A DNA stretch of 64,000 nucleotides, from positions 3,077,001 through 3,141,000 of the forward strand of contig NZ_CP034448.1 in assembly GCF_003952465.1 (NCBI RefSeq), given 5' to 3'. Shown here one piece after another: positions 6,033 through 24,214 of the stretch (position 1 is its first letter; every line of letters begins with the position of its first letter). The notes under the pieces were generated by a model, which worked only from the letters and a program-made list of their open reading frames with translations, was not told the origin of the DNA and did no database searches. A program made the position numbers and the translations under genes. The DNA comes from Mesorhizobium sp. M1B.F.Ca.ET.045.04.1.1. GTDB lineage: Bacteria > Pseudomonadota > Alphaproteobacteria > Rhizobiales > Rhizobiaceae.

Positions 6033-6571
6033 TGGCGCTTATCGAGGCAGGACAACTGCCGGAATTTCCATCTGGGGAGAACTCCCGCCTCGCTCTACCG
6101 CGCGGCTCATCCCGGGGCGCCACGCTCGAGGACATTCCCTTCCTGCGTCGTCTCTACTGGTCCTTCCGCATGGAGGAAATGGAGCCGGTGCCTTGGCCGC
6201 AGGAGCTGAAGTGGGCGTTTATCGATCAGCAATTCGACCTGCAGCACCGCCACTATGTGGCGACATTCTCAAGCGCCGATTTCCTGATACTGCTGGACGG
6301 AAGCGAGCCGATAGGACGGCTCTACGTCGATTCCAGCATGGAGCGCTGGCATGTCATCGATATTGGCTTGTTGCCGCAACGGCGCAATCGCGGCAAGGGA
6401 GTGGCCACGCTGAAAGCCATTCAGCGCCAGGCGAAAGCCTGTTCGGCGTCCGGCATAATGCTGCATGTGGAGCGGCGCAACATTCGTGCGCAGGCGCTTT
6501 ATCGCAGTCTTCATTTTCGCGAAGCCGAAGCCAGCGATACCCATATCCAGATGCAGTGGTCGACGCGCTGA
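6032..6571 (+). CDS. GNAT-family N-acetyltransferase
   Basis: A 179-aa GNAT acyltransferase. The acetyl-CoA-binding motif A is visible as LPQRRNRGKGVATLKAIQRQ, and the preceding strand carries the ID.GLLP pattern. ATG 6032 is preferred to GTG 6029, which is the alternative directly before it. It overlaps the end of the third collar gene. The substrate cannot be read from sequence. Its position directly after the collar trio suggests it modifies those proteins or a product they bind, but this is inference. Confidence 0.85.
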   Translation: MALIEAGQLPEFPSGENSRLALPRGSSRGATLEDIPFLRRLYWSFRMEEMEPVPWPQELKWAFIDQQFDLQHRHYVATFSSADFLILLDGSEPIGRLYVDSSMERWHVIDIGLLPQRRNRGKGVATLKAIQRQAKACSASGIMLHVERRNIRAQALYRSLHFREAEASDTHIQMQWSTR

Positions 6572-6602: not shown

Positions 6603-6896
6603 TCAGTTGAAGATCGCCTGATAAACGATCCCCTCTTTGTCCCTGGCGACTGGGACAAGAAATATCTCCAATTTGCCCAGCGTCGCATTCTTCAACTTGT
6701 AGAGCTTTTGCGGCAGCACGATCTGCGAGCCGCTTCGGAACATCAGCGAAAAGGGCGATCGCCGCATTCCGGGAAAACCGTTTTCCGGCAGGGGACGTGC
6801 CTCCGACAGTGTCAAAGACACCGAACTCTCGCCCAGGTCGATATCGAACGCGCTGCCGACGCACCCCGTGAAATGACCCAGCGTTACAATTTCCAT
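6603..6896 (-). CDS. DUF6916-like small protein
   Basis: A 97-aa protein starting MEIVTLGHFTGCVGSAFDID and rich in beta-strand-like segments (SVSLTLSEARPL, FSLMFRSG, KLEIFLVPVARD). I assign it to the DUF6916 family, small proteins I recall next to tail-collar genes, from memory of that pattern. It is the last gene of the long minus-strand chain and converges on the acetyltransferase. The roughly 200 bases upstream (6897-7096) hold short open frames of 40-56 codons with no recognisable product, none of which I support as a gene. Confidence 0.65.
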   Translation of the reverse strand: MEIVTLGHFTGCVGSAFDIDLGESSVSLTLSEARPLPENGFPGMRRSPFSLMFRSGSQIVLPQKLYKLKNATLGKLEIFLVPVARDKEGIVYQAIFN

Positions 6897-7096
6897 AGCC
6901 CTTCCGCACTCCTCAGATCACAAGCAGGCACGGCCCGGCGCCTCGTCCTGAACACCTTCTCGAACAGCGCGCGCCTCACCCCCTTGATATCGCATTTTCG
7001 GGAAGCCGCGGCCACGGGATTTCGGCAACCCGAGCGCTCTGCAAAGTACGAAATGAAACCCGGCTTCTTGATCGCGCTGAGTGGGCATGAGCGTCC

Positions 7097-8272
7097 TCAC
7101 CCATGTCGAGCTGATTTGGCTAAAGAATGGAGCTTGTGGACGTTTTGCGCGGCTGGCGCCGCACGGTAGCGAGTGACGATCGAGCGGATGACGGCGAAAG
7201 GCCGGAATGGCCGCAGGACCAGGGTCAGCCGGTCCAGAATCCGGTTGATGTCGTCCTGGACGGAACCGCGCAGCGTTCGCCGATGCCCCGTCGCCGCCAG
7301 ATTGCCGAGCAGCGTCAGCGCGGCATAGATCAGACAGGCGGCCAGCGTCTCTTCCCATTCTTCGTCGGCCAATCGCAGCCCATAATCGCGATCCATCAGG
7401 ACGCGGTGCTGTTCCGCAAAGGCCAGGGGCATGTTCGGAGACGCCAACAGATATTCGCCGGTTTCGGTATTGGTTTCGAACTTGCCCAACAGCGTCTTGG
7501 TCAATTCGTAGAACGGCGGCGCATAATGGCTGTATTCGAAATCCAGAAGATAGGTCTCCGTGCCGATCTCAAAGGTCTGCCGCGCATTGCCGAGATCGTC
7601 GTGGATCAGGGCCCGACGGCCCGGATAATTCTCGACCAGCGCCACCACGGCGTCGAACTCCCGCTCCAGCGTCCGCCGGACTGCCGGCGTTTCCCAGGGG
7701 GAAACCATCGAGGCCAGCCCGGCACGGCCGTCGGCGGCCCGTTCAGCTTCCCGCATCACTCCGTGATAGCGCCCGTCCGTCGCAACCGGGCCGAGCCCGG
7801 CTTGCCGCCGCAGCTCCAGATACGTCGTTTCCTGGTCGAGGGTGCGGCCGTGCAGGCGCGCCATGGCACGGGCAAGGCGCGGGACCAGCTCGGCGAAACT
7901 GCGCGCCACTGGATTTCCGATCGGGCCCAGATCCTCGAGCAGCAGCAATCCGGCCGGATCGAAGCCCAGCAGCGCCGGCTTCAGCCCCGACTCGGCGCCG
8001 ATGCCGGCGAGGAAGCGGTGAACGACCTGTTCCTCGCGGAATTCGGGAGCGTCGGGCACTGCACCGGGCACGAATCTCTCCGCCGGAACATGCTTGATAA
8101 TCACCGATCCCGGATTGCCGGAAGGCCTACGCAGAAATAGGCGGCTGACACAGGCAGCCCGCCGGCTGAGCGGCTGCCGATGCGCGATGCGGGTGCCGGA
8201 ACCGAAGACGGCGACCAGAAGTTCAGTCAAAGCCCCCTCCAGGGATGCCGACCAGATCATCGGTTCAGACAC
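7097..8272 (-). CDS. aminoglycoside-phosphotransferase-fold protein (APH/choline-kinase family)
   Basis: A 391-aa kinase-like protein. The catalytic-loop equivalent reads LIHDDLGNARQTF (Brenner-type H.D....N) and the metal-binding DFG equivalent is YLLDFEYSHYAPPFYEL. An N-lobe segment VIIKHVPAE supplies the probable ATP-anchoring lysine, and LLLLEDLG is the hinge. It overlaps the upstream collar gene by eight bases, so it belongs to the same transcript as structural-looking proteins. APH-fold enzymes phosphorylate small molecules or peptides. The target here is unknown, and antibiotic resistance is not implied. Confidence 0.8.
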   Translation of the reverse strand: MSEPMIWSASLEGALTELLVAVFGSGTRIAHRQPLSRRAACVSRLFLRRPSGNPGSVIIKHVPAERFVPGAVPDAPEFREEQVVHRFLAGIGAESGLKPALLGFDPAGLLLLEDLGPIGNPVARSFAELVPRLARAMARLHGRTLDQETTYLELRRQAGLGPVATDGRYHGVMREAERAADGRAGLASMVSPWETPAVRRTLEREFDAVVALVENYPGRRALIHDDLGNARQTFEIGTETYLLDFEYSHYAPPFYELTKTLLGKFETNTETGEYLLASPNMPLAFAEQHRVLMDRDYGLRLADEEWEETLAACLIYAALTLLGNLAATGHRRTLRGSVQDDINRILDRLTLVLRPFRPFAVIRSIVTRYRAAPAAQNVHKLHSLAKSARHG

Positions 8273-10103
8273 CGGTGCGCATGATGTAGCACAGGCTGAA
8301 CCACGTCGGCCGCATCCCGCCGCTCTGGGGCGCCGTGACAGCCGCTTGCGAGTAGTCCAGGGTCACCCCATGGGAGTGGGTGCCGTTCGACTGGAAGATG
8401 TTGTTCGGTTCGGGCATGTTCGGGTCGCCGAGGGTGCCGCCGGTATCGATCGACGCGCGATAGCTGCCGGTGGTGCACATGACAGCGTACCAATCGGAGG
8501 GCACCCCGTGAGTATGCGCGCCGTCTGACGTTGTGTTCGCCGCGGCCGATGGCATTTGCGACATCGTATGAGTGTGCGTCGGGCTGCCAGTGTCCCCGAC
8601 CGCCACGGAACCGGAAGCCGTCCCGATGACGAACCGATCCTGCAGGTCGGGCAGACAAAAGGTGGTGACGCCATCGCCGCCGAATGTCTTCCCGATGACG
8701 AAATATAACTGCGGATTGTCGGCGACAGACAGGCTGCTGCCATCGCAGACGGCATAGCCGGCCGGCACGCTGTCGAGCGAACCGGACCACGGCACCACGG
8801 CGCCCAACGGCAACAACTGGCCCAGCAGCGCCGATGCCGACTGCGGCGCCTGAGCCGTCACCGTGGCTTGGCTGGTGGCGATCGCGTTCAGATACGTATC
8901 ATAGGCCGTCAGCACGAAGCTGGTGGTCCGCCATACCGGCACCTGCACGTTCTCCCCGCTGGGGGGCACCATGCCCAGTCCGGAAACCTCCACCATCGTG
9001 GCGTTCTCGACGGTCCAGTTCAAGCTCACCGTCTGCGGTCCGCTATCGGGCGATACGGTCACCGTGTCGGTGCTCAGCGTCAGTGGGCCGCTGATCGTCA
9101 TGGTCTCATAGACCTTGTCGAGCACGAGCGTCGTACTCCCGTCGGCATAGCCGGGAATATTGACGAACTGGATATATGCGAGCGTTGGGGTCGCGGCGAA
9201 CTCGGTGACGATGTTGGTGAGCTCGAACGTAGCCACCGCTTGGACGCCGGTGCCCAGGATCTGGTTGTTGGTTCCCGCGATGGGTTGCAGGGACCAGACC
9301 GGCCCTGCCGACCCGGCAAGCTGCGTTGCGGTCCACAGCGTGTTTCCCGTCCCCAGCCCAACCGAGATTTGGCTGCCGTCGTCCGGAGTCGTCAGGGCGA
9401 AATAGCCCGGCGGGGCCGATCCATAGACGAAGGTGATGTTGACGCTGGGCGGATCAACTCCCCAGTCGACGCCGTCCGGCACCAGAGGCTGTTGGGTCTT
9501 GTTCGACAGTATCAGCTCCAGGCTGTTCTGGATGGGGTATTGCGGATTGCGGCTGATGCCGATCGTCGCGTCGTTTGTCGTGCCCGGCAGCGAAAGGCTA
9601 ATCCCTACGGCGTCGGTGACATTCAATCCGCCTGCAGGATTCGCGACATTGACTGGGCAGGTCACGGAGAAATTCTCCGCTCCCGGCAGGTTGTAGATGT
9701 CGATGGCGACCTGGCAGAGACTGACGGCCGTGGTCGGGGTGAGCCCGGCCACGGTGACGTTCAGCGAAGCGCCCGCGTCCCAATCCGTGTTGTCGTTGGG
9801 TGAAATCGCCCATCCCGGGTAAGGGGCGTCGGCGAAAAACTTCGCGGTCCATCCCGTAGCCGTAACCGACAGATCTCCGCACGGCGCCGACTCCTCGTTG
9901 GCGAACAGAGCGTTGAAGAAGAGAAGCAGCGTGAAACCGCTGCCGGTGACCGGGTCGGCGGGGGTGCCGCCCGGCAGCGTGATCGTCGCACCGGTCTGGT
10001 TGACGGCCTGGACGGTCACCGTGTTGTCCTGCCCGACATAGACCGTGTTGGAGTTTTTTGGATTGACGATTGAGAACGAGACGCTGCTTTGGCTGGCGGC
10101 CAT
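8265..10103 (-). CDS. 612-aa protein with Ig-like module and C-terminal tail-collar domain
   Basis: The long N-terminal part (about residues 1-350) is beta-rich and unrecognised. An Ig-like module follows (VSLNWTVENATMVEVSGLG...TTSFVLTAYD). The last 190 residues are a tail-collar domain (GYAVCDGSSLSVADNPQLYF, GKTFGGDGVTTFCLPDLQDR, repeated HTH/HSH pairs) ending SLCYIMRTGV. The start at ATG 10103 has the ribosome binding site GAGGAAG. Gaps of 11 bases upstream and an 8-base overlap downstream tie it into the chain. It is the longest of three paralogues that share the Ig-plus-collar ending. There is no signal peptide. Confidence 0.8.
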   Translation of the reverse strand: MAASQSSVSFSIVNPKNSNTVYVGQDNTVTVQAVNQTGATITLPGGTPADPVTGSGFTLLLFFNALFANEESAPCGDLSVTATGWTAKFFADAPYPGWAISPNDNTDWDAGASLNVTVAGLTPTTAVSLCQVAIDIYNLPGAENFSVTCPVNVANPAGGLNVTDAVGISLSLPGTTNDATIGISRNPQYPIQNSLELILSNKTQQPLVPDGVDWGVDPPSVNITFVYGSAPPGYFALTTPDDGSQISVGLGTGNTLWTATQLAGSAGPVWSLQPIAGTNNQILGTGVQAVATFELTNIVTEFAATPTLAYIQFVNIPGYADGSTTLVLDKVYETMTISGPLTLSTDTVTVSPDSGPQTVSLNWTVENATMVEVSGLGMVPPSGENVQVPVWRTTSFVLTAYDTYLNAIATSQATVTAQAPQSASALLGQLLPLGAVVPWSGSLDSVPAGYAVCDGSSLSVADNPQLYFVIGKTFGGDGVTTFCLPDLQDRFVIGTASGSVAVGDTGSPTHTHTMSQMPSAAANTTSDGAHTHGVPSDWYAVMCTTGSYRASIDTGGTLGDPNMPEPNNIFQSNGTHSHGVTLDYSQAAVTAPQSGGMRPTWFSLCYIMRTGV

Positions 10104-10114
10104 GGTCGGCTTCC

Positions 10115-10939
10115 TCAGGTCTTGATGATGTAGCAAATCGCAAACCAGGGCGGCTGGATGCCGTCGCTCGTGCCGTCGCTGGTGAAGGCATCAAATGACA
10201 GGTTGACCGAGTGAGAGTGCCCGGCCGGATTGTCGTTCTGCGTCGGCGACCCGGCCACGCTGAAGCTCTGAACGCCGATAGAGGTGTATTTTCCCGAGCT
10301 GTAGGCCGCCTGATACCATGTATTCGGCAACTCATGCGTATGGGGGGCGCTGGTGTCGGTCTGGAAATCGCCGCTGAATGCCGGAATCGGGTGTGTGTGG
10401 GTATCGGCCGGACCGCAGGTCTGCGCGGCCTCGGTCGATTGCCCTGTCGCACCCATGACGAAACTGCCGACCAGGTTCGGGACGCCGAACGTCGTCGTTC
10501 CGGTGCCGCCGTAGCTTGAGCCCAGCACCTTCGCCAGGGCGGGGTAGTTGCTGGATTGATAGACGGTGCCGTCGCAAGGCAGCCAGCCGGCGGGCAGCGC
10601 GTCGGCATTGCCTGCCCAGGCGACGATGGTGCCCGCCGGAACCATCCGCGTGGTCGAGTCGGGCGTCACCGTGATCGTGGTGGTCGCCGTCTCGACCTGG
10701 TTCGTCGCCGAGGCGAAGACGGTGAGCTCGAACACGGTGGTCTCTGTGACGGTGACGATGGTCCCGGTCGAGGTCAGCGGGACCACCCCGACGCCGGACA
10801 GCAGCGCCGCCGTGCAGCCTGCCGCCGTCTGCCATTGCAGGGTAACCTCGGCCGGTGTCACCAGATCGGTCGGGTTGCAGTTGGCCACGCAAGTGAACTG
10901 CGTGATCAGGGACGAGTCGTTGGCGGTATCCGCAGGCAT
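10115..10939 (-). CDS. 274-aa protein with Ig-like module and tail-collar domain
   Basis: Shortest of the three Ig-plus-collar paralogues. The N-terminus (MPADTANDSSLITQFTCVAN) leads directly into the Ig-like module (VTLQWQTAAGCTAALLSGVG...TTVFELTVFA) and then the collar domain (GWLPCDGTVYQSSNYPALAK, SYGGTGTTTFGVPNLVGSF, HTHPIPAF, SHSVNL), ending AICYIIKT. The third of three in-frame ATGs (10939) is chosen because GAGG sits six bases before it; 10945 and 10951 are alternatives. It lacks the long N-terminal extension of its neighbours, so it shows the minimal common unit. Confidence 0.8.
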   Translation of the reverse strand: MPADTANDSSLITQFTCVANCNPTDLVTPAEVTLQWQTAAGCTAALLSGVGVVPLTSTGTIVTVTETTVFELTVFASATNQVETATTTITVTPDSTTRMVPAGTIVAWAGNADALPAGWLPCDGTVYQSSNYPALAKVLGSSYGGTGTTTFGVPNLVGSFVMGATGQSTEAAQTCGPADTHTHPIPAFSGDFQTDTSAPHTHELPNTWYQAAYSSGKYTSIGVQSFSVAGSPTQNDNPAGHSHSVNLSFDAFTSDGTSDGIQPPWFAICYIIKT

Positions 10940-10973
10940 GGTCATCCTCATTGCGATCGGTCGGGTCGGAGGC

Positions 10974-12734
10974 TCATGTCTTGATCAGACAGCAGAGCGA
11001 GTACCAGGGCGGCCTGACGCCCACATCCGGCGTCGATCCGACCGAGTTGGTGCCGCTGGACTGGTCGGGGAAGCTGACGGGGATCTGGTGGGTGTGTGCG
11101 CCACCCGACTGCACGGTCGTGGGGTTAGAGCTGGAACCCTGGCTGAAGGACGGGGCGCAGACGCTTTGGCAATATTCGTGGTCGGTGCTGCTCAGGCTGC
11201 GGGCATACCAGGCGTTCGGCACGACGTGGTCGTGCCCGGGGTCCGTTGTCACCGTGGGGGCGACGGTCTGCGTCGGCAGACCGACGTCATGCGTATGGGT
11301 GTCCGGCCCGCCGCCGGTCTGCGGCGGTTCAGCCGACTGCGATCCGGCACCGACCACGAAAGCGTTGGTGAGGTCGGGCACGTTGAAGGTTGTCTGGCCG
11401 TCGCCGCCATACTGGGTGCCAATGGCGGCATAGAGGTTCGGATAGTCGTCGATGTCGTAGGCGCTTCCGTCACACAGCAGCCAGTTCGCCGGCAGCGCCG
11501 ACAGCGGCCCGCCCCAGTTGATCATCGTGCCGGCGGTCACCAGCAGGCTTTCTGGATCGGGCGATATCGTTGCGGTAACCGACAAGGACTGCGGCAGCTG
11601 CAACGTCGAGTCGAACGCCGTCAGAATGAAGGTCGTGCTCTTCTCGACCGTCACCTGGAAGTTGGACGTCCCCGTGGGAACCACCCCGACGCCCGACAGC
11701 ACAACGTAGGCGGCATTGCTGGTTGCCCAGCTCAGATAGGCTGTCTGCGGAGTATCGATGACGCCGAAGCCGTCGGACGGCGAGATGGTGAAGGAGGAAA
11801 TCGTCGGTTGCCCGGACGCCGCATCGATCAAGACCGTCTGATATCCGTCGGCCCGATCTGGAATATTGGCCGAATAGAGTGCGAGATGCCCCCTCCGGGA
11901 CTGGTCGGTGAACAGGTTGCCAATCTCGATTACGGCGCTGCGTGGCCCGGGGCGGCCCAGCCAAGGACCGTCTTGGGACTTGGGGACCAGCCTCCAAAAC
12001 GGCGTGCTGCTTCCCTCGATACGCTCAGCGGTCCAGCCGTGGGCCGTCACCTGTGCCTTTCCGCCAAGCTTCGAGGACGTGAGCGCCTGCAGCTTGCCGC
12101 TGTTCGCGGTGGTGATGCCCACAACGATCTCGGGCTGGCCAGCCGGCGCAGCCGCAAGATCCGGCCGCGCAGCCGACGGCCTGACCTCGATCTGCAGGCT
12201 GCCGCCGGTGGTCTGGTGGCGATAGGCGGCGGGACCCGCCCCCCTGGCGCCGCTTGTCAATTGTCCGGCCGCCGGCGTCTCCAGCTTCATCAGCGGAAGC
12301 GATCGTTGCCAGGTCAGGTGCGGGTGGAAGCGCTCGAGCGTCACCTCCAGCAGACCCAAGCCGGCACCGCCAGTCAGCACGAGGTCGTTCAGCCGGACAG
12401 TCAGGTATTGAAGGCGCAGCCAATCATACTGCTCGGCCGCCAGCGCCAGCTCGATGATCCCGGGGCGCGGGGCCGTGGCGGTGAACCACGGACAGCTGAC
12501 CTGCGCCGGATCCGGCGCGACGGCGGGCGAGAGCTCGGTGAAGTCCAGCCGGAGCGTCGGCGCCGCCCCGTTGCGCGGCACCAGCACGAAGGACTGGTCG
12601 GTCTGGTTGGCAAGGAGAAGCGTCAGGCTCGTCGGCAACCCTAGCGGGATAGCACAGGTGCCCTCCGCCGCGGCGTTGGACAGGCTGGCGACGATCTCAC
12701 CCTTGATCTTGAGGGAGTTGCGAGCCTTGGGCAT
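10974..12734 (-). CDS. 586-aa protein with Ig-like module and tail-collar domain
   Basis: It starts MPKARNSLKIKGEIVASLSN at ATG 12734, which shares one base with the stop codon of the upstream gene (TGATG). Residues 1-330 are an unrecognised beta-rich region that partly parallels the 612-aa paralogue (both mention GD.FTDQSRRGHLALYSANIP-like or equivalent strand-rich stretches). The Ig-like module follows (TAYLSWATSNAAYVVLSGVG...STTFILTAFD), then the collar domain (NWLLCDGSAYDIDDYPNLYA, GTQYGGDGQTTFNVPDLTNA, DTHTHDV, HTHQIPV), ending SLCCLIKT. No secretion signal is visible. Confidence 0.8.
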   Translation of the reverse strand: MPKARNSLKIKGEIVASLSNAAAEGTCAIPLGLPTSLTLLLANQTDQSFVLVPRNGAAPTLRLDFTELSPAVAPDPAQVSCPWFTATAPRPGIIELALAAEQYDWLRLQYLTVRLNDLVLTGGAGLGLLEVTLERFHPHLTWQRSLPLMKLETPAAGQLTSGARGAGPAAYRHQTTGGSLQIEVRPSAARPDLAAAPAGQPEIVVGITTANSGKLQALTSSKLGGKAQVTAHGWTAERIEGSSTPFWRLVPKSQDGPWLGRPGPRSAVIEIGNLFTDQSRRGHLALYSANIPDRADGYQTVLIDAASGQPTISSFTISPSDGFGVIDTPQTAYLSWATSNAAYVVLSGVGVVPTGTSNFQVTVEKSTTFILTAFDSTLQLPQSLSVTATISPDPESLLVTAGTMINWGGPLSALPANWLLCDGSAYDIDDYPNLYAAIGTQYGGDGQTTFNVPDLTNAFVVGAGSQSAEPPQTGGGPDTHTHDVGLPTQTVAPTVTTDPGHDHVVPNAWYARSLSSTDHEYCQSVCAPSFSQGSSSNPTTVQSGGAHTHQIPVSFPDQSSGTNSVGSTPDVGVRPPWYSLCCLIKT

Positions 12735-15700
12735 CAGTCGTTCTCCAGCAATTGGGTGAGCTGAAGCCACCCTTCCTGCATGTTCTGCGACCGCTGCAGG
12801 GACGCGGTGTTGAGGGGCGGCTGAATGGATTGCTGCAGCCAGTCCCCGTTCTGGTAGGTGATCCACCCCCAGGTGCCGCCGCCCTCGCGCGGGGTCGGGA
12901 TGGCGAAGCTGCCGGCTGGCGCCAGCACCGGCGCCGTCAGGAAGCTGAACGACATCCGGCTGAGTGCGGCGTTGTAGGTTTCGGCGGCCAGCGTCAGTTC
13001 GCGGACTGGAAGCAGGCCGGTGTTGAGATGGACGCTGCTGCGCGGATCGATCAGCATCGCCACCAGGGTCGGCTGGTCGGCGTTCAGGGTCAGCGTCAAG
13101 CCGTCGGCCGCCGGCACGACGACGTTGTCGCTGCTGCCGTCCGCCTGCGCGGCGTAGCAGAGCGAGAAATCGGCATCGCCGTCGTCGCCGGCCAGGAAGA
13201 ACCCCATCAGCCCGTCGTCGAGGTCCAGCTGGTTGCCCAGCACCACCGGAATCTCGATGTCGTCCAGCCCGTGCAGGGTGCGGTCCAGCACGTCGGTATT
13301 GTTGTCGATATCCTGGGCCAGGGCAGCGTAGCTCTGGTCGGGAACCGGCAGCCCGGCCATGGCGAGATCGAGCTTGGCTTGCACCAGAGCCAACGGCGTT
13401 CCCATCAGCATCGCCGTCTGCCGGCTGAGCTGGTGGCCGTCGGGCAGGACGAAGGCCTGGGTTCGCTCGATCGTCAGCAGCAACGAGCCGGCATACGTCG
13501 CCCCGTCCATCTCGATGGCCGAGGCGAATGCCGTCAGTACGGCATTGCGGCCGACGAAGGATTCTTCGAAGCTCTGGCCCGGCGGCCCGGCATTGGGGGC
13601 GGACTGCCAGATCAGGGTGCCGGCGCTCACAATGTGGCTGCCGATCGCCGAGCCGTTCGCGTCGTAGTACATGAGGCTGGAATCCAGCGTGTTGGGAACC
13701 AACCAGCCGCAGATCGGATTGGTGGCCGCAAGCCCGCAGTCGCGCAGGCTGGGATTGGCGGCCGCCAGCCAGTCGGCCGTGAGCTGCGTCGCCTGCGTGA
13801 AGCGTAGCGGCAGCACGAACCCTTGTTCCACCGAAACGTCACGCAAGGTGTAGGCGATTGCGGCGGTGCCTATCTGGATGGCGCGGGACCGGCCGAACGA
13901 GTCGATGAACATCAGTTTCTGCGGAACGAGCTGGCCGCCCCGCAGGGGGTTGTAGACCGGATCGTCCGTAGCGCCGCCGGCCAGGCTCGGCGCGAAGCGG
14001 TTCTCCCCGCCGACAGCGTTCCTGACGTCCACGTCGGTGAAGTCGCCCGAGAACTCATCAACCGCGCTGGGATCGGCGATCAGGAGCTGCAGCGTCTGCA
14101 CGCGCCCCAACAGGCCGGTGTTGAGCCCGCTGAACGCCTGCGACAGCAGCGGCGTGCTGCCGAGATCGGTCAGGATCTGCCGGAGTTCCGGATCGTCATG
14201 CTGGGTCAGGTAGGCGGCGATCTGCGCCTGCATGCTCGTGCTGGCATCCGTGCTCAATAGCGCGGTGCCGGAAAGCTCGACGAAGGAATCAAAGTCGGGA
14301 TCGATGGGAAAAAGGTTCAGCGAAACCGACGGATCGAAATCGAACTGGCTGGTGACTGCATCGGCCGCGTAGGTATCGCTCAATCCCGCCAGCGGCAGCA
14401 GCGGATAGTAGTTGGCGCTCCAGGACAGGGCGATCGGCCGCCAGGGAAGCTGCCAGGACAGGCAGGCGATATCCGCCTGAGCGATGGGCGCGCTGCTGAA
14501 GTCGATACCGCTGAACGCCTGGCCGGACAGCCAGTCGGTCTGCGCCTGCCCGATGTCAGTATTGGTGGTGGCGAAGTCCAGAACCGCGGGATTGGCCGTC
14601 CCGCCCTGGCTGGCTGCAGCCAGCGTCACGACGTTGCTGGCGGCCGGCACGATCAGCAGGTCCGACTGGACCAGTTCCGCCGCGGCCGTCAGGCAGGCTG
14701 CCGCTTGGTCAGGCAGGCCGGTGGGTAGGGTCGGCGCCGGCAAAAGGTCGGCTGAGACGGTGGTCAGCGCCGACCCGCTGACCAGCCCGGCGGCGAGGGT
14801 GAGGGACGGCGGCGACGGGGCCAGGAAGACGCAGCCGATCTCTTTGGCGTCCTCGGGGAGCACGGTCGGCACGCCGTCGCCGGTCAGCAGGACCACCGGA
14901 TCGGGGGCGCCGTAGAACCGCTCGGCCGCCGTGACCTCCAGGCTGAGATTGCCCGGCAGTCCGGCGATGATCTCGCTCATCTGGTTGGCAATGCTGGTCT
15001 GCAGTTTCTCTGCGTCCTGCTGCAAATGCGACAGGGCGCCGATCTCGCTTTGGATATAATTCGTCATGTCGGTTTCGCTGGGCGACGCGGGCGGATCGGC
15101 AGCGTAACGGGCGATGATGTAGTGGTACCAATCGTTGAAGATTCGGGCCTGCAGGGTGATCATATCCGCCTGCAGTGCGTTGAGCTCATCCTGCGATGTC
15201 ATGAGCTGGTTCATCGACGCAGCGAGGCTGTCGGACGGTTGCGGGAAGTCGCCCTTGGTGCCGGTGGCGCGCAGTCGCCAGCTATGGCCGTTCGAGAAGG
15301 CGGTGTAAGCGGCGTTGTAGATCGCCTCTTCCAGGCGCAAGAGCCCGCTCGGCTGCCCCAGCTGCGGCAGCACGCCCAGTTGCAGTGCGTCGAGTATCTG
15401 CTCGACCTGCGGGAGGTTGTCGCTCTCGACCGCGCTGGCATAAGCGGCAAAGGCTTCCGAAGGCGTGTTGCCGAACGCCACGCCGGTCGACAACGGACCG
15501 GTCTGGTCAGACAGGAACGCGCTGCCGCTGTCCCAGGGCAACTGGTAGACGAGACCGTGGCAGAGAGTCCGCGACGGAACATAGTGGGTATCCGAGTAGG
15601 TCCAGCCGAAGGCGGCCGCGACCGCGTCCGGATCGGCGCCGGCCAGCGGATCGTTCGAGGTATCGCTGTACCAGCCGGTCACGGAATAGAGCAGCACCAT

Positions 15701-16342: not shown

Positions 16343-17292
16343 CGGGATCGGCCTTCTTTCGCCGCCGGGCCTTCTTTCGCTGGCGGACTTACCACCGCCG
16401 ATGCGGCGGCGGTGGCGTCGAAGACGACCTCTTGGACGCCTTCGACCAGTTCCATCGCAAACTGCGCCGCGGTGTAGGGAGAGCCATCGGAAATGGCCGA
16501 GTTCGCCGCGAGTCCGGTCTGGATGGTCTGGGCCAGCGTCGCGATGTCGACCACCGTGCTGCTGCCGGACCGGAACGGCACGGTGATCGTGACCGGCTGT
16601 TGATCACTGTCGAGCACCGGATCGCCGGGCTTGTTGTCGCCCTCGGTGTCGATATAGCGCAGGCTTTTCTGGGAAGATTGCAGGTCGATGCCGAAATGCA
16701 GCGTTTCCGCCGGTTCGGCGAACGTCACCCGTTGCACCAGCCCGGCGAACAGGCCGAGCGCCAGTCCGGAAGCCAGGATGTCGAAGCGCACGAGTGGGAC
16801 GTGCTCGCTCCCCGCGGCGTCGGCAAAGCCATTGACCTCCACGCCGGGCCAGACATCGACCAGCGCCGACCGGAGCACGAAGCCGGACATCACCCCCTCG
16901 AAGCCCTCGATCGGCTCGCTGCCGGCGGTCATCCCGAGCTTGAGCGCCCGCTGGCGGCTCATCCGACCGACGGCGCGTGCCTTGAAGCGGGCCTGCGGGG
17001 CGGCGGCATCGCCAGCGGAAATGCCGACCGCGGCCTGTCCGATGCTGAAGGCGCCGTCGACCAGCGCCGTGACCCAGTTGTCGTCCACAGCGAAGAAGCG
17101 GATGGATTCCAGCGGCAGCATGCCGGGGTCCGGCACAAGGTAGCCAAGCGGCACGCCTTCGAACAGCATCAGCCGCGATAGCCAATCGGTGATGGCGATC
17201 GTTGCCGGGTCGTCGTCGAAGACGACGGGCGGCTGCGCTAGCGCTTCCCTCATGCGTGCACCGTAATCGGCGGCGGCGGTCAGGCGTGTCAT
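16339..17292 (-). CDS. 317-aa uncharacterised protein of the DUF6603/collar cluster
   Basis: No known function. The N-terminal 80 residues carry a compact pattern, LSRLMLFEGVPLGYLVPDPG then MLPLESIRFFAVDDNWVTAL and VDGAFSIGQAAVG, which I have seen in unannotated proteins that accompany large exported or phage-like proteins (memory, not a search). The C-terminus is alanine-rich with a PPAKEGPAAKEGRSR tail. It overlaps both neighbours by four bases (ATGA type). No signal peptide or membrane segment is visible. Confidence 0.7.
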   Translation of the reverse strand: MTRLTAAADYGARMREALAQPPVVFDDDPATIAITDWLSRLMLFEGVPLGYLVPDPGMLPLESIRFFAVDDNWVTALVDGAFSIGQAAVGISAGDAAAPQARFKARAVGRMSRQRALKLGMTAGSEPIEGFEGVMSGFVLRSALVDVWPGVEVNGFADAAGSEHVPLVRFDILASGLALGLFAGLVQRVTFAEPAETLHFGIDLQSSQKSLRYIDTEGDNKPGDPVLDSDQQPVTITVPFRSGSSTVVDIATLAQTIQTGLAANSAISDGSPYTAAQFAMELVEGVQEVVFDATAAASAVVSPPAKEGPAAKEGRSR

Positions 17293-18683
17293 GGGCGAGC
17301 TGCCTTCTCCAGGAGATTGGTGAGGAGCGGCTTGATCACGGTCTTGATGACCTGCTCCGCGATGCTGGCATCCGGTGTGGTCAGCGTGGCGAGATCGCTC
17401 CCGACCTGTTCCGCCAGGATCCGCGTCTCCAGGTCGGCCACGGCGCCCTGCTGCTGGCCGATCTTCCAGTTGTAGAGCGTGGTCGCGAAGTTCTTGTCCG
17501 CCAGCGCCAGGAGCTGCCCCAGCTGCCAGGCGGCAGCGTAGCTGGTGTCGAACATCCCCGTCTGCGGATCGTAGCGCATAAGGGCGTCGGCGGCCCCGAA
17601 CGGCGGCGCCAGGACCGGCTGGTTCCAGTACGGCAGCAGCGGCCCGCGATACCAGCTCACGGTGCTGCCGCCCTGCCGGGTCAGATGGTTGAAGGCGGTA
17701 TAGCCCATCGCCAGCGCCTGCTGGACGTCGATCGACTGGACGGTGTCAGGGCACGGTCGTTGCAGCGTCGCCGGGTCTTGATTGAGCGCAGCGAAATAGT
17801 CGCCAAAGGTCTCGCTGTTATCCGCGCAGCCGAAGCTCCAGGACGAGAGCACCGCCAGGCGGACGGTCGTGTCGGCGTTCTGCGCAGCGGGCGGCAGAAG
17901 CGGCCCCAACCCTTCCAACGAGACCAGGCAGCACAGCGCTGTGCTGCCCGGCGTGGGGAGTCGATTGGCCACCACGACCGACAGCTCGGTCTGAGCCGCT
18001 CTGCCGCGCTTGGTCGCCTTCAGGGCCGCCCGCTTGGGCTCAACTTTGCGAGCATGCGCCAGCCAGTAGAGATCGCAATAGGATGGCGTGATCGCGGAAA
18101 ACAGCGGGCCCGGCACGTCGATATACTGGCAGGGGAGATAGACCGCACTGCCATTCTGGCTCGTGCATTCCCCGTATTCCAGACTATCCTCGAGGTCCGG
18201 ATATGAAACGGTGCCGCTCGGCAATCCATCCGGCAGCAGGTCGGCAATCGTCCCGGCGGCGACCGTCGGCGCCGGGTCGCTCTGGTCGAAGACCAGCAGC
18301 GCCAGCCAGGGATAGACCGCCGTATCCGTCGGGATCGATGGCGTCTGGAAACCGCTCGGCGCATCGCCCGGCGAGCGCTGCCAGGGCAGGGTCCTGTCGG
18401 TCAGCACCAGGTGCGGCAGCACGTTGGAATATTCGCCGTTGTCGCCCGGCGGCGGAAATTGGGTGTGGATGCGGTCCGGCGGCAGCGAGAAGCGCGGGCC
18501 GAGCACTGAGAAGGTCAGCGTGGCGGAAAAGCTGTCGCTGAAGCTTTGGCAGTCCGTCGATCCCACGTTTTGGGTCGCCGTCACGGTATAGTCGCCGCTT
18601 TGCCACTGCGGCTGGTAATGTTCGACGAAGATGATGTCATTGGCCGCCGTGGTATCAGCGAAGCGGACGGTGTTGTTGTTCAT
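17289..18683 (-). CDS. 464-aa uncharacterised protein of the DUF6603/collar cluster
   Basis: Unrecognised protein beginning MNNNTVRFADTTAANDIIFV. Early residues contain QSGDYTVTATQNV and FSVLGPRFSLPPDRIHTQFP, followed by VLPHLVLTDRTLPWQRSP and PWLALLVFDQSD. The C-terminal third is helical (AAAWQLGQLLALADKNFATT, VIKTVIKPLLTNLLEKAARP). ATG 18683 with GAGGGG eight bases upstream is preferred over an in-frame TTG at 18704. It starts 17 bases after the DUF6603 stop and overlaps the next gene by four bases. No catalytic motif is evident. Confidence 0.7.
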   Translation of the reverse strand: MNNNTVRFADTTAANDIIFVEHYQPQWQSGDYTVTATQNVGSTDCQSFSDSFSATLTFSVLGPRFSLPPDRIHTQFPPPGDNGEYSNVLPHLVLTDRTLPWQRSPGDAPSGFQTPSIPTDTAVYPWLALLVFDQSDPAPTVAAGTIADLLPDGLPSGTVSYPDLEDSLEYGECTSQNGSAVYLPCQYIDVPGPLFSAITPSYCDLYWLAHARKVEPKRAALKATKRGRAAQTELSVVVANRLPTPGSTALCCLVSLEGLGPLLPPAAQNADTTVRLAVLSSWSFGCADNSETFGDYFAALNQDPATLQRPCPDTVQSIDVQQALAMGYTAFNHLTRQGGSTVSWYRGPLLPYWNQPVLAPPFGAADALMRYDPQTGMFDTSYAAAWQLGQLLALADKNFATTLYNWKIGQQQGAVADLETRILAEQVGSDLATLTTPDASIAEQVIKTVIKPLLTNLLEKAARP

Positions 18684-18700
18684 GCCGGCTCCCCTCAGGA

Positions 18701-21700
18701 TCAAACGGCGGGCTGGGCCGCCGGCGCGGCCGCGCCGAGCAGGCTGAGCGCGATCGGCGTGATATAGCCCAGCGTGGCGGACGCGGTCAGCGGCGAGACG
18801 TCGATCGGGCTGGCGATCTCCACGTCGGCAAACAGCAAGCCGGAAACGATGGCCATCCTGGCTGCCACGACGCCGGGATCGGCGATGGTGTCGGCAAGCG
18901 CAGTCAGAGAGTCCTCGCCCTTGAACGGGTCGCTCGTCGGGGCGTTGTCTGCGCTCCAGTCAAGGCCGTAAGTGGCCTCGACCGTATCGAGCAGGGTGGC
19001 GATCTCGATCGCCTGGACCGTGCCCGGCGGAACCAGGCTGGGGACGATCCCGACCGCCTGCAGGCTGTCGGCGACCAGCGCGTCTCCGTTCAGAGTCTGG
19101 CCGTTGCTCGCTGGACCCCACAGCGCCGCGGCCGCCCCGCCCGTGCCGCTGGTGTCCAGGCTAGCCGCCGTATAGTCGGCCTCCTCGTATTCGACTACGA
19201 CATCGAGCGCATTGTCGAAGGAGGTGAGGCCGAGCGGGCCGATGGCGATGTCGGTGTTCCAATCACCGGTCACCGCCGTTCCATTGTAGGTCAGCGTGTC
19301 GATCGGGATCATCGTCTTGAGGCCAAACCTCAGGAGGTGGGGATCGACGACGTAGTCGACGGGGAAGGCATTGCCGTTGCCGTCGGTCGCATTGGTCAGG
19401 TCGATCAGCAGTCCAGACTGGATGGCGAGCGTGACCACCGGCGCGGTATCGGCGGCATCGGCCGCAATCGGGCTCTGCTGGGCGGACGCAGACGGCAGGA
19501 ACTGGGTCTTGAACTGCGACCAGTCCAAGGATGGTGGCGGCGGCGTCTCGCCGAAGGTGATGCGGAAGGACAGGACGCTCAGATGGATGTCGGCATAGCC
19601 CGAGAAGGGCGGGCCGACAATCATGAGGTCGGCCCCGACGGAAATGTTGATGGTGACGGTGGTAATGTCGAGATTGATCGTCGCCTGGACCCCGAAGTCG
19701 ACGCCGGCATCGATCCGATAGGCGAGCGGCGCCCATTGGATCAGGAAATCGGCGTAAAGGCTGAACCACGCCTTGATCGAGTCGGAGTGCCACACCGCGT
19801 TGAGATAGCCGCCGACCATGATCATGGCCGGCGTCAGCGCCATGTATTCGCCACCCTGGATCGAGAGCGCGGTCGTCACCTGCCAGTTGATGCCGAGCCT
19901 GGGCACCGTCGGATAGTGGTCGGGCTTCTTGAAGCTCGGGTTGTAGCCGCCCAGCGTGATCACGAAGTCGCCGGCATAGGGGCTGGGATCGAACCAGATA
20001 TAGAAGGCGAAGCCTCCGGTCAGATGGCAGTTCGGATCGAGCACATAGGAGGCGGAGTTGAGCTGCGCGGCCACCGAGAACACCCCCTGCGACGGAGTGT
20101 AGAGGGCTTCCAGCACCATCTGGGCGAACACATAGGGTTTGCTGTCCTGCGGCACCGCCAGCGTCGATTCGCCGAGGAGCGCCACCTGGAACTCGGTTCC
20201 GAATTCGACCGTGACCAGCGCGAAGGATTGCACCAGCTCGTAGGAGGTGAAGGCGACGCCGGCGGCGATCCAATATTCGCCGGTCGACGCGACGATCGCC
20301 GTGGACATTTTCTGCGCGACGGTGGCGAGCGACGGCTGCGGTCCGAACTCGCTGGTGCTGGCCGCGCCCGCGACCAGCGGGAAGGTGGCAACGCCGGTGA
20401 TGGGTGGCGGCACCAGCCGGGTATTGACGCCGAACCCGGCCGCCAGCCCGGTGACGAAGAAGATCGGCGGGCCGCCGAGCGGCTCATTGAGCACCAGATA
20501 GGCGAACATCGAGGGCGGGCTGGACGCCGTATAGGAACCGAAGGCCGAGAGCGAGAGGCTTTCGGCCTTGACGATCAGGCTGCCGGCGAAGGTGTCGACG
20601 TCGTCGGTGTCGGTCTTGAGCAAGCTGCCGCTGATCGTCACCGCCGGCGAGGCATAGGAGACTGCCAGCCCGTCGATTACGAAGGTCGGCTCGATCGGCG
20701 TCGCCAGCGGGATGGCGACACCGAGGCCCTGGACTGCGATGTCGAGCCCGGACAGCGTCAGGCTGGCATCCATCTGCACCGACAAGCCCTGGCTGCCCAG
20801 ACCGAAACCGACCTTCTGGACCAGCACGGGGCCGAAAGACCGCTCGACATCGATCCAGGTCCCGTTGGGCGGCGCCGTCCCGCCGGTCGCTTCGCCGACC
20901 AGCAAGGCCGTCCCGGCGGGCTGCTGCTGCGTGCCGGAAAGCGGGATGGTGATGATCTGGGTTTCGCTGGTGCCCAGCCCGACGACCAGCGACAGCGAGC
21001 AGTTGCTCGTCGCCGGAGTGGTGCCGGTTTGCGGGGCGGTGTCCGCGGTGAAGGTTACGGATTGCAGCGAGAGCTGGAAGTCCGGCCCGACCAGGTCTCC
21101 GACCAGCGGCAGCGCCGCCAGGTTGACCGTGGCGGACGGGAAAGAGACGGTGGCTGTGACCGACAGCGCCCCGGCCGGAAATCTGTATTCGACGCTGACC
21201 TCATCGATATCCACCTCCGGCAGGCCCGTCAGCGGGGGGAGGTCGAAGAGGCCAAGAACGTAGTCGAGCAGGTCGCTGAGGGTCAGCGGTTGGTCGGGAT
21301 TGGACAAGCCGGAGCCGGCGAAAGTCCAGCCGGAAGGATCGTAGTTGGCAGAGACCAGCACCTCCATCTTCGGTAGCGACAGGACGGCCGCGATGCCGCC
21401 CGTGACCGTGCCGGACGAGCCATCATACGCCAGGCTCAGCGAGATCTGCTCGAGCACGAGCGAACCAACCAGCGTCCAACTCTCCTTGATATCCGCGGCA
21501 AAGGCATACTGGTTCCGCGTGACGTTGCCCGTCATCTCGAACGCGAGGGCGGTGAAGCTGGTGAGGCCGCTCCCGCCGTCCTCCGTGCTGGTCGAGTGGT
21601 CGCCGATCAGGCCGGTGACCGTCGATGTCAGGTCCAGCGACTGCGTCGTCTCGGTTATCTCCAGCGCGACGCCGAATCTGAGATCGGGAAAGGTGACGAA

Positions 21701-22948
21701 GGCCGAGAGGGCGATATCGGGGTTATCGGTGAGATAGGCGGTGCAGCTTGCCTCGCCGTCGGGCGTGAAACCGTCGCCCATGTCGGTGACGCCGACCTCG
21801 ATCTCAATGCTTTCGAAGGTCAGCATGCCGAAGGCCGTCCAGCTCTGCCCGCTTCCCAGCGAGACCGTCACCGAGATCGAGGAAAAGGCGGGGATCGGCT
21901 GGCTGATATCCAGGATCAGCACGACGTCTTCGATGGTCAGGCCGTCGGTGACGTCGAAACCGGAACCGGGCGACAGCGTCGAAGTGACCGAGGTGCCGGC
22001 GAGTATCCCGGAGAGATCGTCCGCGTTGCATGTCTGGGTCGGCAGGCCGGTAGCCCGAAATACCAGGCTGGTGCTGTTGCCGCTGATGACGGCCGTGGTG
22101 ATCTGAAATGCCTGGATGCCGGTTCCCGAAGGCGTGAACTGGGCGCCCAGCACCACAGCCCCGAGACAGTACACACCGATTTCGGAGAGCGGCGATTTCT
22201 CGTCGCCAACTTCCACGAACACACTGGCGAACGACAGCGAAAAGGTCAGGTCATACCCCGAAACCGTAATCGGTTGGGCGTCGGTGGTGGTGGTCAGCTC
22301 CCCCTGGGGGAAGGGGGCCGGCGTATCGGCCGAGCCGTGGGGCAGCAACAGCAGATCGAGTGGGCCACAAAAACTGCCGGAAGACAGGCCGAGGAGAGTG
22401 GCGATTGTCCCGAGCACTCCCGATCCCGGCATCGCGACGCCGCTGGAGAGGATGAGTCCGGGCACGATGGCGCCGGCAACAGCGGGCAGGTCGTCGCCCA
22501 AGCCGAGCGTCGGCCGGAAATCCGCCGGCAGCGTGGGATCGGCCGGCACCGTGAGGGTGAAGATCGGCCCGGCCCAGGCGATGCTGTCGAATATCAGCCC
22601 GTCCAGCGTGGGAAATGCCGACGGCAAGCCCCAGGCCGCATCGGTGACCGCGATCGGGAGCGTGACTGAGACGCTTCCATCCTCGTCGAGGGCGAAGACA
22701 CCGTCCGTGACCGTCGCCGTGGCGGCGTTGAGGAATGTTCCCGTCGCAACGGTGCCGCTGACCGTCACTGTCTGCGCCGTCGCGTCGGACGTCATGACCG
22801 CGTCGGATAGCGTCAGGGTTCCGCCGGTCAAGCAGGATTGGAACAGGGAGGTGACGGGGGCCGTCCCCAATGCCGATCCTGCCACGGCGATCGTTTGTGC
22901 CGCATCCGGGGTTAGCAATCCGACCAGCTGATCGAATGTGATGCCCAC
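18701..22948 (-). CDS. 1415-aa DUF6603 domain protein
   Basis: Very large beta-rich protein. The C-terminal half matches what I know of DUF6603: FFVTGLAAGFGVNTRLVPPP, VATFPLVAGA, EYWIAAGVAFTSYELVQSFA, YVLDPNCHLTGGFAFYIWFD and PYAGDFVITLGGYNPSFKKP. The N-terminal 700 residues are threonine/serine-rich with many repeated strand-like segments (for example VTVSGTVATGTF, LTLSDAVMTSDATAQTVTVS). It has no signal peptide. It starts at GTG 22948 with GGAGA seven bases upstream, 12 bases after the stop of the EEP gene. Its biochemical function is unknown. The repetitive strand architecture is compatible with a long fibre or shell, by inference. Confidence 0.8.
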   Translation of the reverse strand: MGITFDQLVGLLTPDAAQTIAVAGSALGTAPVTSLFQSCLTGGTLTLSDAVMTSDATAQTVTVSGTVATGTFLNAATATVTDGVFALDEDGSVSVTLPIAVTDAAWGLPSAFPTLDGLIFDSIAWAGPIFTLTVPADPTLPADFRPTLGLGDDLPAVAGAIVPGLILSSGVAMPGSGVLGTIATLLGLSSGSFCGPLDLLLLPHGSADTPAPFPQGELTTTTDAQPITVSGYDLTFSLSFASVFVEVGDEKSPLSEIGVYCLGAVVLGAQFTPSGTGIQAFQITTAVISGNSTSLVFRATGLPTQTCNADDLSGILAGTSVTSTLSPGSGFDVTDGLTIEDVVLILDISQPIPAFSSISVTVSLGSGQSWTAFGMLTFESIEIEVGVTDMGDGFTPDGEASCTAYLTDNPDIALSAFVTFPDLRFGVALEITETTQSLDLTSTVTGLIGDHSTSTEDGGSGLTSFTALAFEMTGNVTRNQYAFAADIKESWTLVGSLVLEQISLSLAYDGSSGTVTGGIAAVLSLPKMEVLVSANYDPSGWTFAGSGLSNPDQPLTLSDLLDYVLGLFDLPPLTGLPEVDIDEVSVEYRFPAGALSVTATVSFPSATVNLAALPLVGDLVGPDFQLSLQSVTFTADTAPQTGTTPATSNCSLSLVVGLGTSETQIITIPLSGTQQQPAGTALLVGEATGGTAPPNGTWIDVERSFGPVLVQKVGFGLGSQGLSVQMDASLTLSGLDIAVQGLGVAIPLATPIEPTFVIDGLAVSYASPAVTISGSLLKTDTDDVDTFAGSLIVKAESLSLSAFGSYTASSPPSMFAYLVLNEPLGGPPIFFVTGLAAGFGVNTRLVPPPITGVATFPLVAGAASTSEFGPQPSLATVAQKMSTAIVASTGEYWIAAGVAFTSYELVQSFALVTVEFGTEFQVALLGESTLAVPQDSKPYVFAQMVLEALYTPSQGVFSVAAQLNSASYVLDPNCHLTGGFAFYIWFDPSPYAGDFVITLGGYNPSFKKPDHYPTVPRLGINWQVTTALSIQGGEYMALTPAMIMVGGYLNAVWHSDSIKAWFSLYADFLIQWAPLAYRIDAGVDFGVQATINLDITTVTINISVGADLMIVGPPFSGYADIHLSVLSFRITFGETPPPPSLDWSQFKTQFLPSASAQQSPIAADAADTAPVVTLAIQSGLLIDLTNATDGNGNAFPVDYVVDPHLLRFGLKTMIPIDTLTYNGTAVTGDWNTDIAIGPLGLTSFDNALDVVVEYEEADYTAASLDTSGTGGAAAALWGPASNGQTLNGDALVADSLQAVGIVPSLVPPGTVQAIEIATLLDTVEATYGLDWSADNAPTSDPFKGEDSLTALADTIADPGVVAARMAIVSGLLFADVEIASPIDVSPLTASATLGYITPIALSLLGAAAPAAQPAV

Positions 22949-22960
22949 CGCGATTCTCCG

Positions 22961-24214
22961 CTAGAGGTGTAGCTCGACGAAGATCGGCTCGTGGTCGCTG
23001 ATCAACCTGGCGCCGACCAAACCTGCTTCAGGAGTCACAAAAGTGCTTTGATCGCCGCGGCCCAATTGAACAGCGAAGTTCTTCGTGAAAACCCGATACT
23101 CTTTTGAAGTAAATACCCTCTTTCGTTTCTTATCCCAGAACGACGCAAATCCACGCCTGTCGAGTTTATCGTAGTAATCAACGGCATTGCCGTACTGAAA
23201 TTGTCTTTTCCTAACCCTGTTCAGTATGTTGTCGACCTGCTGGTTCTGCCCTTGAGCTGGGGCAGGCGCTGCCGGACTGGTCTGCAAGATGACATTGTCA
23301 TAGGCGTTTATCGCTAGATCACGTCTATCCCTGCGAGTGGATCGCGCAAACCTCGGGAAAGTCATCAAATGGGTGGGCTCATCAAAGAGCAACTGTGCGC
23401 CTAGGCCACCAGATGCCCCCGCGGTGGTGACCCAGTCATAATCGCCAGCGTTCTTCTTGGCGTCGAGATTGAAATCGCCGGCAATCACCGCCTGATAGAT
23501 CTGGGTCGCGACGGGCGCTGGCTGCCCGGGCAGTTGCACCATCATGGAGAGACCGCCGGCGCCATGTGGCCTCAAGGAGTAGAACAGGCTGAAATCTTCA
23601 ATGGTCTCCAATTGCTTGAGGGCTGCAGATCTCTTCGCTGCCAGGTGCACCAACATGATCGGCAGCAATTCATTGCCCGGGTCGGCCCCAGGCACGTAGA
23701 ACATGCCCAGCGCGCTGCCGCGGGTTCCAGGCCAGGTCGTTGGGCTGGCCGCTGGCTTGTCCGGGTAGATAAGGGGGAAGGCATTCAGGACGATGCCGTT
23801 CATTGGTGTCGGCGCCGGAGAGAATTCGGCTGCAGTAATTGCCACGCCGCCCGGGCCGCCGATCTCCATCGACACCGAGCCGCCAACGGCGGGGCCAGAC
23901 ATCTCCAGCGGCACGACGAATGTCGTGTCCCTGACGAAGAAAGCGTAGAATTCCTTCCCGGTATTTGGCGAGAGCAGGCAGATGTCGAATGCAGATTTCT
24001 CGGCGGCCAAGGCTTCCATCAACGCGTCACAGATTTTGTAGGCCCTGGATTCGCTGGTAGTATTCAATTCAACAAGGCAGAATATATCCGGCTCGGAAGC
24101 GCTAATTACCTGCGCAATAGCCTGTGTTAGGTTGCACTTAGAGTCTTTCAAGCCGCTCTTAAGCTGGCCAAAATTCTGAATATTCCATACGAGCAGATCT
24201 ACTTGAGTCGCCAT
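22961..24214 (-). CDS. endonuclease/exonuclease/phosphatase (EEP) superfamily protein
   Basis: A 417-aa protein with the EEP fold. Visible motifs are LLVWNIQNFGQ at the N-terminus, CLVELNT (metal-binding Glu), VIAGDFNLDAKKN (D.N catalytic pair) and ISDHEPIFVEL at the end (DH pair). EEP enzymes cut phosphodiester bonds in nucleic acids or phospholipids, or remove phosphates. It lacks a signal peptide. ATG 24214 fits the domain start; an in-frame start further upstream would add 20 unconserved residues. Only 12 bases separate it from the DUF6603 gene, so it appears to be the first gene of the long chain. Confidence 0.8.
   Translation of the reverse strand: MATQVDLLVWNIQNFGQLKSGLKDSKCNLTQAIAQVISASEPDIFCLVELNTTSESRAYKICDALMEALAAEKSAFDICLLSPNTGKEFYAFFVRDTTFVVPLEMSGPAVGGSVSMEIGGPGGVAITAAEFSPAPTPMNGIVLNAFPLIYPDKPAASPTTWPGTRGSALGMFYVPGADPGNELLPIMLVHLAAKRSAALKQLETIEDFSLFYSLRPHGAGGLSMMVQLPGQPAPVATQIYQAVIAGDFNLDAKKNAGDYDWVTTAGASGGLGAQLLFDEPTHLMTFPRFARSTRRDRRDLAINAYDNVILQTSPAAPAPAQGQNQQVDNILNRVRKRQFQYGNAVDYYDKLDRRGFASFWDKKRKRVFTSKEYRVFTKNFAVQLGRGDQSTFVTPEAGLVGARLISDHEPIFVELHL

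Follow-up and report, generated by a model that had tools for sequence, protein, structure and literature searches.

The question raised by this locus is what a compact chain of ten genes, some of them encoding giant proteins, may do in a Mesorhizobium genome. The chain occupies positions 6603 to 24214, on the minus strand, of the window, by which we mean the whole 64,000-nucleotide stretch analysed from Mesorhizobium sp. M1B.F.Ca.ET.045.04.1.1, a genome of 7.78 Mb in a single contig. Its central member carries the domain DUF6603, and three further families are called here p464, p317 and p1202 after the lengths of their window proteins. Our analysis places the chain in a group of giant bacterial proteins that has not been described before, is spread over several phyla and combines a swappable enzyme with phage-fibre-like proteins, which suggests that it may be a new modular enzyme-delivery complex.

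We have shown that DUF6603, p464/p317 and p1202 constitute a conserved gene set. The DUF6603 protein of 1415 aa (18701..22948, with a GTG start; the other gene coordinates use likely ATG starts) matched PF20248 at 8e-139 over residues 701-1161, scoring 463.8 bits against a curated cut-off of 27. The conserved core proteins p464 (17289..18683), p317 (16339..17292) and p1202 (12734..16342) showed no Pfam or NCBIfam match at E<=0.1, and in PHROGs p464 and p1202 gave chance-level matches only and p317 none. In a first comparison, p464 and p317 formed one fused frame, followed by p1202, after DUF6603 in five other loci, namely L008 from an alphaproteobacterium of another family, one from Embleya, two from Streptomyces and one from Paenibacillus. 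A scan of genome contigs with an alignment of the DUF6603 core gave 146 relatives, the best 80 of which were retained, and hidden Markov models built here, including those for p464 and p1202, found all four families in 70 of these 80 loci. Complete sets occur in at least eight phyla (Bacteroidota, Pseudomonadota, Bacillota, Cyanobacteriota, Actinomycetota, Acidobacteriota, Chloroflexota and Sumerlaeota), and in four rows without a phylum name. Considering that the 80 loci had been found through DUF6603, each family was therefore searched separately in 398 Pseudomonadota genomes. DUF6603 was present in nine of them; p464/p317 and p1202 were present in the identical nine, each with one extra genome (E 7e-4 and E 1.6e-4, respectively), and in each of the nine the family matches fall inside about 11 kb. 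The initial annotation of this DNA had named beforehand a failure of these genes to co-occur elsewhere as the outcome that would overturn its proposal, and the shared nine genomes do not refute it.

Because the same families recur together across many phyla, the ten-gene arrangement is beyond chance. The set appears in two gene orders, either enzyme, DUF6603, p464/p317, p1202 and fibre, or p1202, fibre, enzyme, DUF6603 and p464/p317. The proteins of 464 and 317 aa are separate in the window, as had been described; in many genomes they are fused into one protein, whose C-terminal portion in other phyla is the homologue of p317.

The position upstream of DUF6603 is a variable enzyme slot, and an EEP nuclease is one of its occupants. 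In the window, this enzyme ('X') slot holds the EEP-family gene at 22961..24214, 12 bases from the DUF6603 gene. Its PF03372 match (2.5e-5) is just above the cut-off and its NCBIfam MnuA-like match (5.7e-9) is under that model's cut-off; the protein contains WN, E, GDFN and SDH, which we take to be the EEP nuclease motif set. Within a sample of 61 genomes of the genus, the EEP gene was found in only two, its own (G000) and G002. A same-strand gene lies upstream of DUF6603 in 75 loci, and 47 of these genes were kept for the slot tally, the other 28 being dropped as collars, as shorter than 250 aa or for a gap of more than 120 bases. At Pfam E<=0.01, the 47 included 12 metallo-beta-lactamase-type (MBL) enzymes, 8 EEP enzymes, 7 of Lipase_3, and one each of subtilase, M91 effector peptidase and HNH; the remainder had no Pfam match, or a few weak or probably unrelated ones. 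NCBIfam likeness was to Avs1a/ComEC for MBL genes and to MnuA for EEP genes, and in one case each to XopG/HopH, XopAP and PtuB. HxDxDH-type motifs were seen in 13 MBL-type occupants, and WN, GDxN and SDH in eight EEP-type occupants (GDxN and SDH only in L032); we take these motifs to indicate MBL and EEP, respectively. The labels of L024 (MBL) and L032 (EEP) were assigned by eye from motifs, and that of L034 (MBL, a cut gene) from the BLAST cluster that it shares with other MBL genes. Each slot occupant is encoded by a gene of its own, and by BLAST these genes form several unrelated clusters as well as singletons; their mean column identity (A6) is 9%.

Enzyme type and the DUF6603-core tree are nearly unlinked, because on a quick tree of 63 cores, 37 rows of which were labelled by enzyme type, enzyme type changes 20 times against a mean of 22.2 when shuffled (21 of 200 draws reach <=20). 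Two Microcystis species carry the locus at the same chromosomal site, with downstream flanks that are 95-97% identical and a core that is 85% identical. In this pair, there is no blastn match for the enzyme gene, which is an MBL in one and an unknown of 1061 aa in the other, or for the first ~500 residues of DUF6603, and the fibre gene and the small genes ahead of the enzyme match in patches only. Between L040 and L059, which belong to different cyanobacterial genera, the junction lies within DUF6603 at about residue 780.

The N-terminus of DUF6603 co-varies with the enzyme type, and we have shown that it does so far more than the other core proteins. In the window protein, this N-terminus spans about residues 1-690 and the conserved core about 700-1135. 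Our test compared N-terminal similarity beyond what the core predicts between same-type and other pairs among 37 loci, from which the near-duplicates L017, L076 and L090 and the long lipase lineage (L074, L077, L091, L094-L096) were excluded. Same-enzyme pairs showed an excess N-terminal similarity of 0.0388 (z 7.4, 0 of 5000 permutations), and cross-phylum same-type pairs alone (n=113), with rows lacking a named phylum treated as their own phylum, also gave 0 of 5000. The nearest neighbour shares the enzyme in 22 of 32 loci when chosen by the N-terminus and in 10 of 32 when chosen by the core. The same test on other core proteins gave z 1.4 for p317 (436/5000) and z -1.8 for p1202 (4842/5000). 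The enzyme type c9 occurs in five phyla with related N-termini.

The set seems to include a module for a fibre or tip, one region of which is shared while the ends vary. The window encodes three proteins with collar domains (PF07484), of 586 aa (10974..12734, 2.6e-21), 274 aa (10115..10939, 3e-21) and 612 aa (8265..10103, 8.5e-21), and, outside the window, 44 of 86 loci contain members of one single-linkage BLAST cluster of collar-type proteins. Ahead of its collar, the 612-aa protein has a conserved region of ~300 aa (residues ~29-330). We read the module in this way because that region recurs, in 31 of 58 loci, in the gene that follows p1202, four of these cases being weaker and partial; because part of it is still recognisable in L064, where Pfam shows no collar; and because L082 carries a Kelch propeller instead. 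The three collar proteins and the recurring families support the earlier view of a multi-protein set with fibre-like parts.

The DUF6603 core fits a large amphipathic sheet in our models. A model of residues 1-1200 had a pLDDT of 73.7; the core was modelled as all-beta, with a pLDDT per ten-residue block of 76-91 at residues 701-800 and mostly above 90 at 801-1130. In the core strands, charged residues make up 3.4% of the hydrophobic face and 20% of the opposite one, and the hydropathies are 2.09 and -0.46, respectively. The structures ranked by Foldseek and VIA were porins, a deinoxanthin-binding S-layer porin complex, ushers, LptD and ApoB100, and for each of them either the TM was low or the rmsd high: ApoB100 reached 9.6e-7 in Foldseek at a TM of ~0.1 and a VIA Z of 12.2 over 608 residues with rmsd 31.7, and porins a VIA Z of ~13 with rmsd ~12 A. 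The p464/p317 fusion of L040 was modelled with a pLDDT of 89.0 and a pTM of 0.82 and had no PDB or BFVD match at E<=0.001 (best PDB E 0.29 and BFVD E 0.037), and the best VIA result for p464/p317 was a Z of 5.2 to an Ig-like CopC piece of 86 residues; absence from these fold-search lists does not prove the fold new. At the sequence level, the DUF6603 and p464/p317 profiles had no match among PDB sequences at E<=1, and p1202 had no trusted one, with nine weak matches (best 0.018) mostly on a coiled-coil-like stretch.

As for the remaining genes, an ORF check found the ten minus-strand reading frames in place, and the frames, sizes and junctions of the same-direction chain were all confirmed. 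Neighbouring genes overlap by up to 8 bases or are separated by up to ~34 bases, and only the gap between the last two genes, those for an APH-like phosphotransferase (7097..8272; PF01636 5.6e-5, just above the cut-off) and a DUF6916 protein (6603..6896; PF21880 5.4e-28), is longer, at 200 bases. All ten proteins recur at 89-95% identity in the sister locus of Mesorhizobium G002. Among the compared loci, APH and DUF6916 homologues occur in this sister locus only, and both are absent from the listed neighbour clusters of at least three loci; we therefore rejected them as core parts, and they look accessory. Accordingly, the initial idea of an assembly with its own nuclease and kinase is kept for the nuclease as a slot occupant and given up for the nuclease as a fixed part and for the kinase as a core part. 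On the plus strand (4335-6571), a tandem of three genes for small collar proteins and one gene for a GNAT acetyltransferase are convergent with the operon; they were rejected as parts of the system because relatives of the collar gene at 4906-5436 occur in 26 of the 61 genus genomes and the EEP gene in two. Upstream of the EEP gene, at 24980-26006 on the minus strand, lie fragments resembling a GntR regulator and an efflux protein of the AcrB type. They are probably the debris of pseudogenes at a site that was rearranged or acquired, and they are the recognisable pieces upstream of that gene, where small unrecognised frames are possible.

Several relatives differ in their surroundings. In a mostly Bacillota type (L039 at 13663-17513, L045, L053, L054, L058, L061, L067 and L089), genes c3 and c4 after p1202 replace the collar fibre, c4 being glycine-rich in the copy that was read, and DUF6603 is ~2,000 aa long in seven of the eight loci. 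In L064, L070, L074, L077, L091, L094, L095 and L096, DUF6603 reaches 3,100-3,400 aa, with a lipase-type gene (cluster c7) upstream in 6 of the 8 and a c5 gene after p1202 in all 8. Distant DUF6603 genes on an archaeal Halalkalicoccus plasmid (L126, 7219-24600) and a Streptomyces plasmid (L127, 11050-24281) are neighboured by other large hypothetical proteins with a BGTF surface domain and WD40. On a Paenibacillus polymyxa plasmid (L015, 5454-10449), baseplate-V and DUF4280 genes stand ~9 kb upstream of DUF6603, and CATRA and CHAT conflict-system genes lie close to the Streptomyces copy in L016 (4074-9130). The genome G060, of the same genus, has in a region from L010 11524-18522 into L011 a distant DUF6603 gene next to frames of 914 and 1718 aa and a LodA/LodB-like pair (by eye); with its faint p464 trace, this locus is perhaps a second subtype.

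We regard as the best explanation a polymorphic effector complex whose chassis is new, and we give it about an even chance. Beyond the observed architecture and enzyme exchange, we infer a physical complex and its delivery. A large soluble complex would be made in the cytoplasm, and the N-terminus of DUF6603 would bind or enclose its cognate enzyme, which in the window would be the EEP nuclease. The body of the complex would consist of p464/p317, p1202 and the DUF6603 core, the last as a giant amphipathic beta sheet, and the collar fibres would bind the target surface and choose the target. The enzyme may then be released into or onto the target cell, perhaps once the amphipathic sheet meets the target membrane. 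No immunity gene lies between the enzyme and DUF6603, which fits an enzyme that stays locked up to the moment of release, or a target that differs from the producer. The more specific proposal of an unrecognised class of modular protein-delivery particles in at least eight phyla, with an exchangeable enzyme and a matched DUF6603 docking region, a conserved p464/p317/p1202 body whose proteins have no known relatives, collar fibres for reaching the target and no contractile machinery, is tentative, and we hold it at somewhat below even confidence.

Some results weigh against this explanation. In the visible DNA, 10 of the 80 loci miss part of the set; nine of these run into a contig or locus end beyond which the missing gene could lie, among them L019, where a fibre gene comes after DUF6603, and L022 has the space, yet no p464/p317 follows its DUF6603. 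The distant DUF6603 gene of G060 is adjoined by a faint p464 trace only, with no p317 and no p1202. The two Microcystis N-termini are still similar as proteins at 446 bits, partly from a DNA-similar stretch, compared with 573 and 900 bits to the nearest same-enzyme locus. Enzyme matching of p464 shows a slight excess at most, because its z is 2.0 (128/5000). The EEP group follows its N-terminus weakly (0.006 vs -0.007), and the pairing in the window therefore rests on the general pattern. Some slot-enzyme matches are below the Pfam cut-offs, and no immunity gene was recognised beside the enzyme. Alternation of the strand faces is also seen in p464/p317, used as a control, with a weaker contrast (7.2% vs 23% charged; hydropathy 1.22 vs 0.02); therefore, the amphipathic character of the DUF6603 core is no proof of membrane or lipid contact.

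The same genes could also be read as an intracellular anti-phage defence with exchangeable effectors, in which the large proteins would sense infection, perhaps with collar-like parts that mimic phage, and unleash the enzyme. Defence systems commonly have nucleases, proteases and lipases as variable effectors. The MBL occupants resemble Avs1a and 6A-MBL and one HNH resembles PtuB, the spread is patchy, a CATRA/CHAT conflict system is close to one copy, and no signal peptide was seen by eye in the ten window proteins, in agreement with the initial annotation. However, none of the ten window proteins was matched convincingly by PADLOC, whose single result at E<=1, CARF at 8.1e-5 for one of the collar proteins, we attribute to chance; no NTPase or known sensor family is among them, and the collar fibres and the kinship with the secreted effectors XopG/HopH and XopAP point outward. 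Accordingly, we consider a defence function unlikely.

Alternatively, the enzymes could be displayed by a cell-surface or matrix assembly that serves adhesion, biofilm or nutrient use and not injury. Collar, Kelch and glycine-rich neighbours are consistent with it, as are downstream genes that look signal-peptide-like by eye in L008, L021 and L082, and lipases and MnuA-like nucleases would suit scavenging. However, the core proteins have no signal peptides by eye, and cassette exchange is typical of conflict and not of housekeeping, which makes surface display rather improbable; the capsule-like role proposed at first was likewise not borne out.

We find it quite improbable that the product is a lipid-carrying or lipid-coated particle in which lipid would be enveloped by DUF6603 in the manner of apolipoprotein B, with the enzyme acting on it or carried in it. 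The ApoB100 matches in Foldseek and VIA and the amphipathic strands suggest such a particle, but those matches have low TM and high rmsd and extend to porins, ushers and LptD, and the nuclease and protease partners would be left unexplained.

A remnant of a phage, tailocin or contractile injection system, to which collar domains of the kind found in phage tails and the baseplate-V genes ~9 kb upstream of the Paenibacillus plasmid copy might point, is very improbable and was rejected, since DUF6603 had no match in 50,697 phage records, a DUF6603 pattern scan of viral contigs had none confirmed, the contractile tube family (T4-gp19) occurs in 23 of 398 genomes, in two of the nine DUF6603 carriers and not in this genome, and the core is conserved across phyla.

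Returning to the effector complex, we note that new toxins, defence enzymes and tools for protein delivery have in large part come from exchangeable-cargo systems, which have been a main source of them. Of the four families in the present chassis, only a single domain, itself of unknown function, has a name in the libraries that were searched. This chassis recurs in distant phyla, with one slot for nucleases, proteases, lipases and MBL enzymes and a docking region that is recognisable from sequence. If protein delivery is true, it would represent a delivery principle without sheath or tube, and if defence is true, an unlisted and widespread defence system; the matching of enzyme and N-terminus makes the system directly testable under either reading. 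DUF6603, PF20248, DUF6916 and PF21880 have no mention in the open-licence papers searched (preprints were outside the scope), and among the titles and abstract openings listed from this literature there is no description of such a system, as had been presumed initially.

With regard to known systems, the DUF6603 core resembles outer-membrane beta barrels and apolipoprotein B in that it would be an antiparallel sheet of very large size, one face of which is mostly uncharged. It differs from them in the high rmsd, in having no sequence relation that we found and no signal peptide by eye, and in its occurrence also in Bacillota and Actinomycetota. The proposed complex would resemble Tc toxin complexes, which are large, soluble, multi-protein toxins with an exchangeable enzyme inside a protein shell; unlike in these, the enzyme here is a free-standing gene, and the ten proteins show no TcA, TcB or Rhs family match by sequence (Pfam, NCBIfam).

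Extracellular contractile injection systems (PVC, Afp and MAC) are assembled in the cytoplasm without signal peptides. Like them, the present set has a patchy spread, with putative target-binding fibres and putative enzymatic payloads, and shows no signal peptides by eye. Unlike them, it has no tube gene in its own genome or in seven of the nine carriers, and among the ten proteins Pfam detected no sheath, tube, baseplate or ATPase family, as had been noted at first; no genome-wide sheath search was made.

Polymorphic toxins usually have an adjacent immunity gene. In the window, the neighbourhood of the enzyme shows no recognisable immunity gene. The enzyme is a separate gene and not a C-terminal domain on a shared N-terminus or trafficking domain, and no model for Rhs, filamentous haemagglutinin, T6SS, T7SS or PVC matched any of the ten proteins (Pfam, NCBIfam). 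We judge the chassis, whose function is putative, to be new because no description of it was found in the literature listed and because neither a fused toxin domain nor an adjacent immunity gene was found. In the portion of PMC3482391 that was searched, the word 'collar' is absent, and polymorphic toxin systems are described there as a conserved carrier with exchangeable enzymatic modules, including nucleases and proteases, across phyla. The principle of exchange is thus already known from polymorphic toxins, and the DUF6603 loci share it, with a conserved carrier and an exchangeable enzymatic module.

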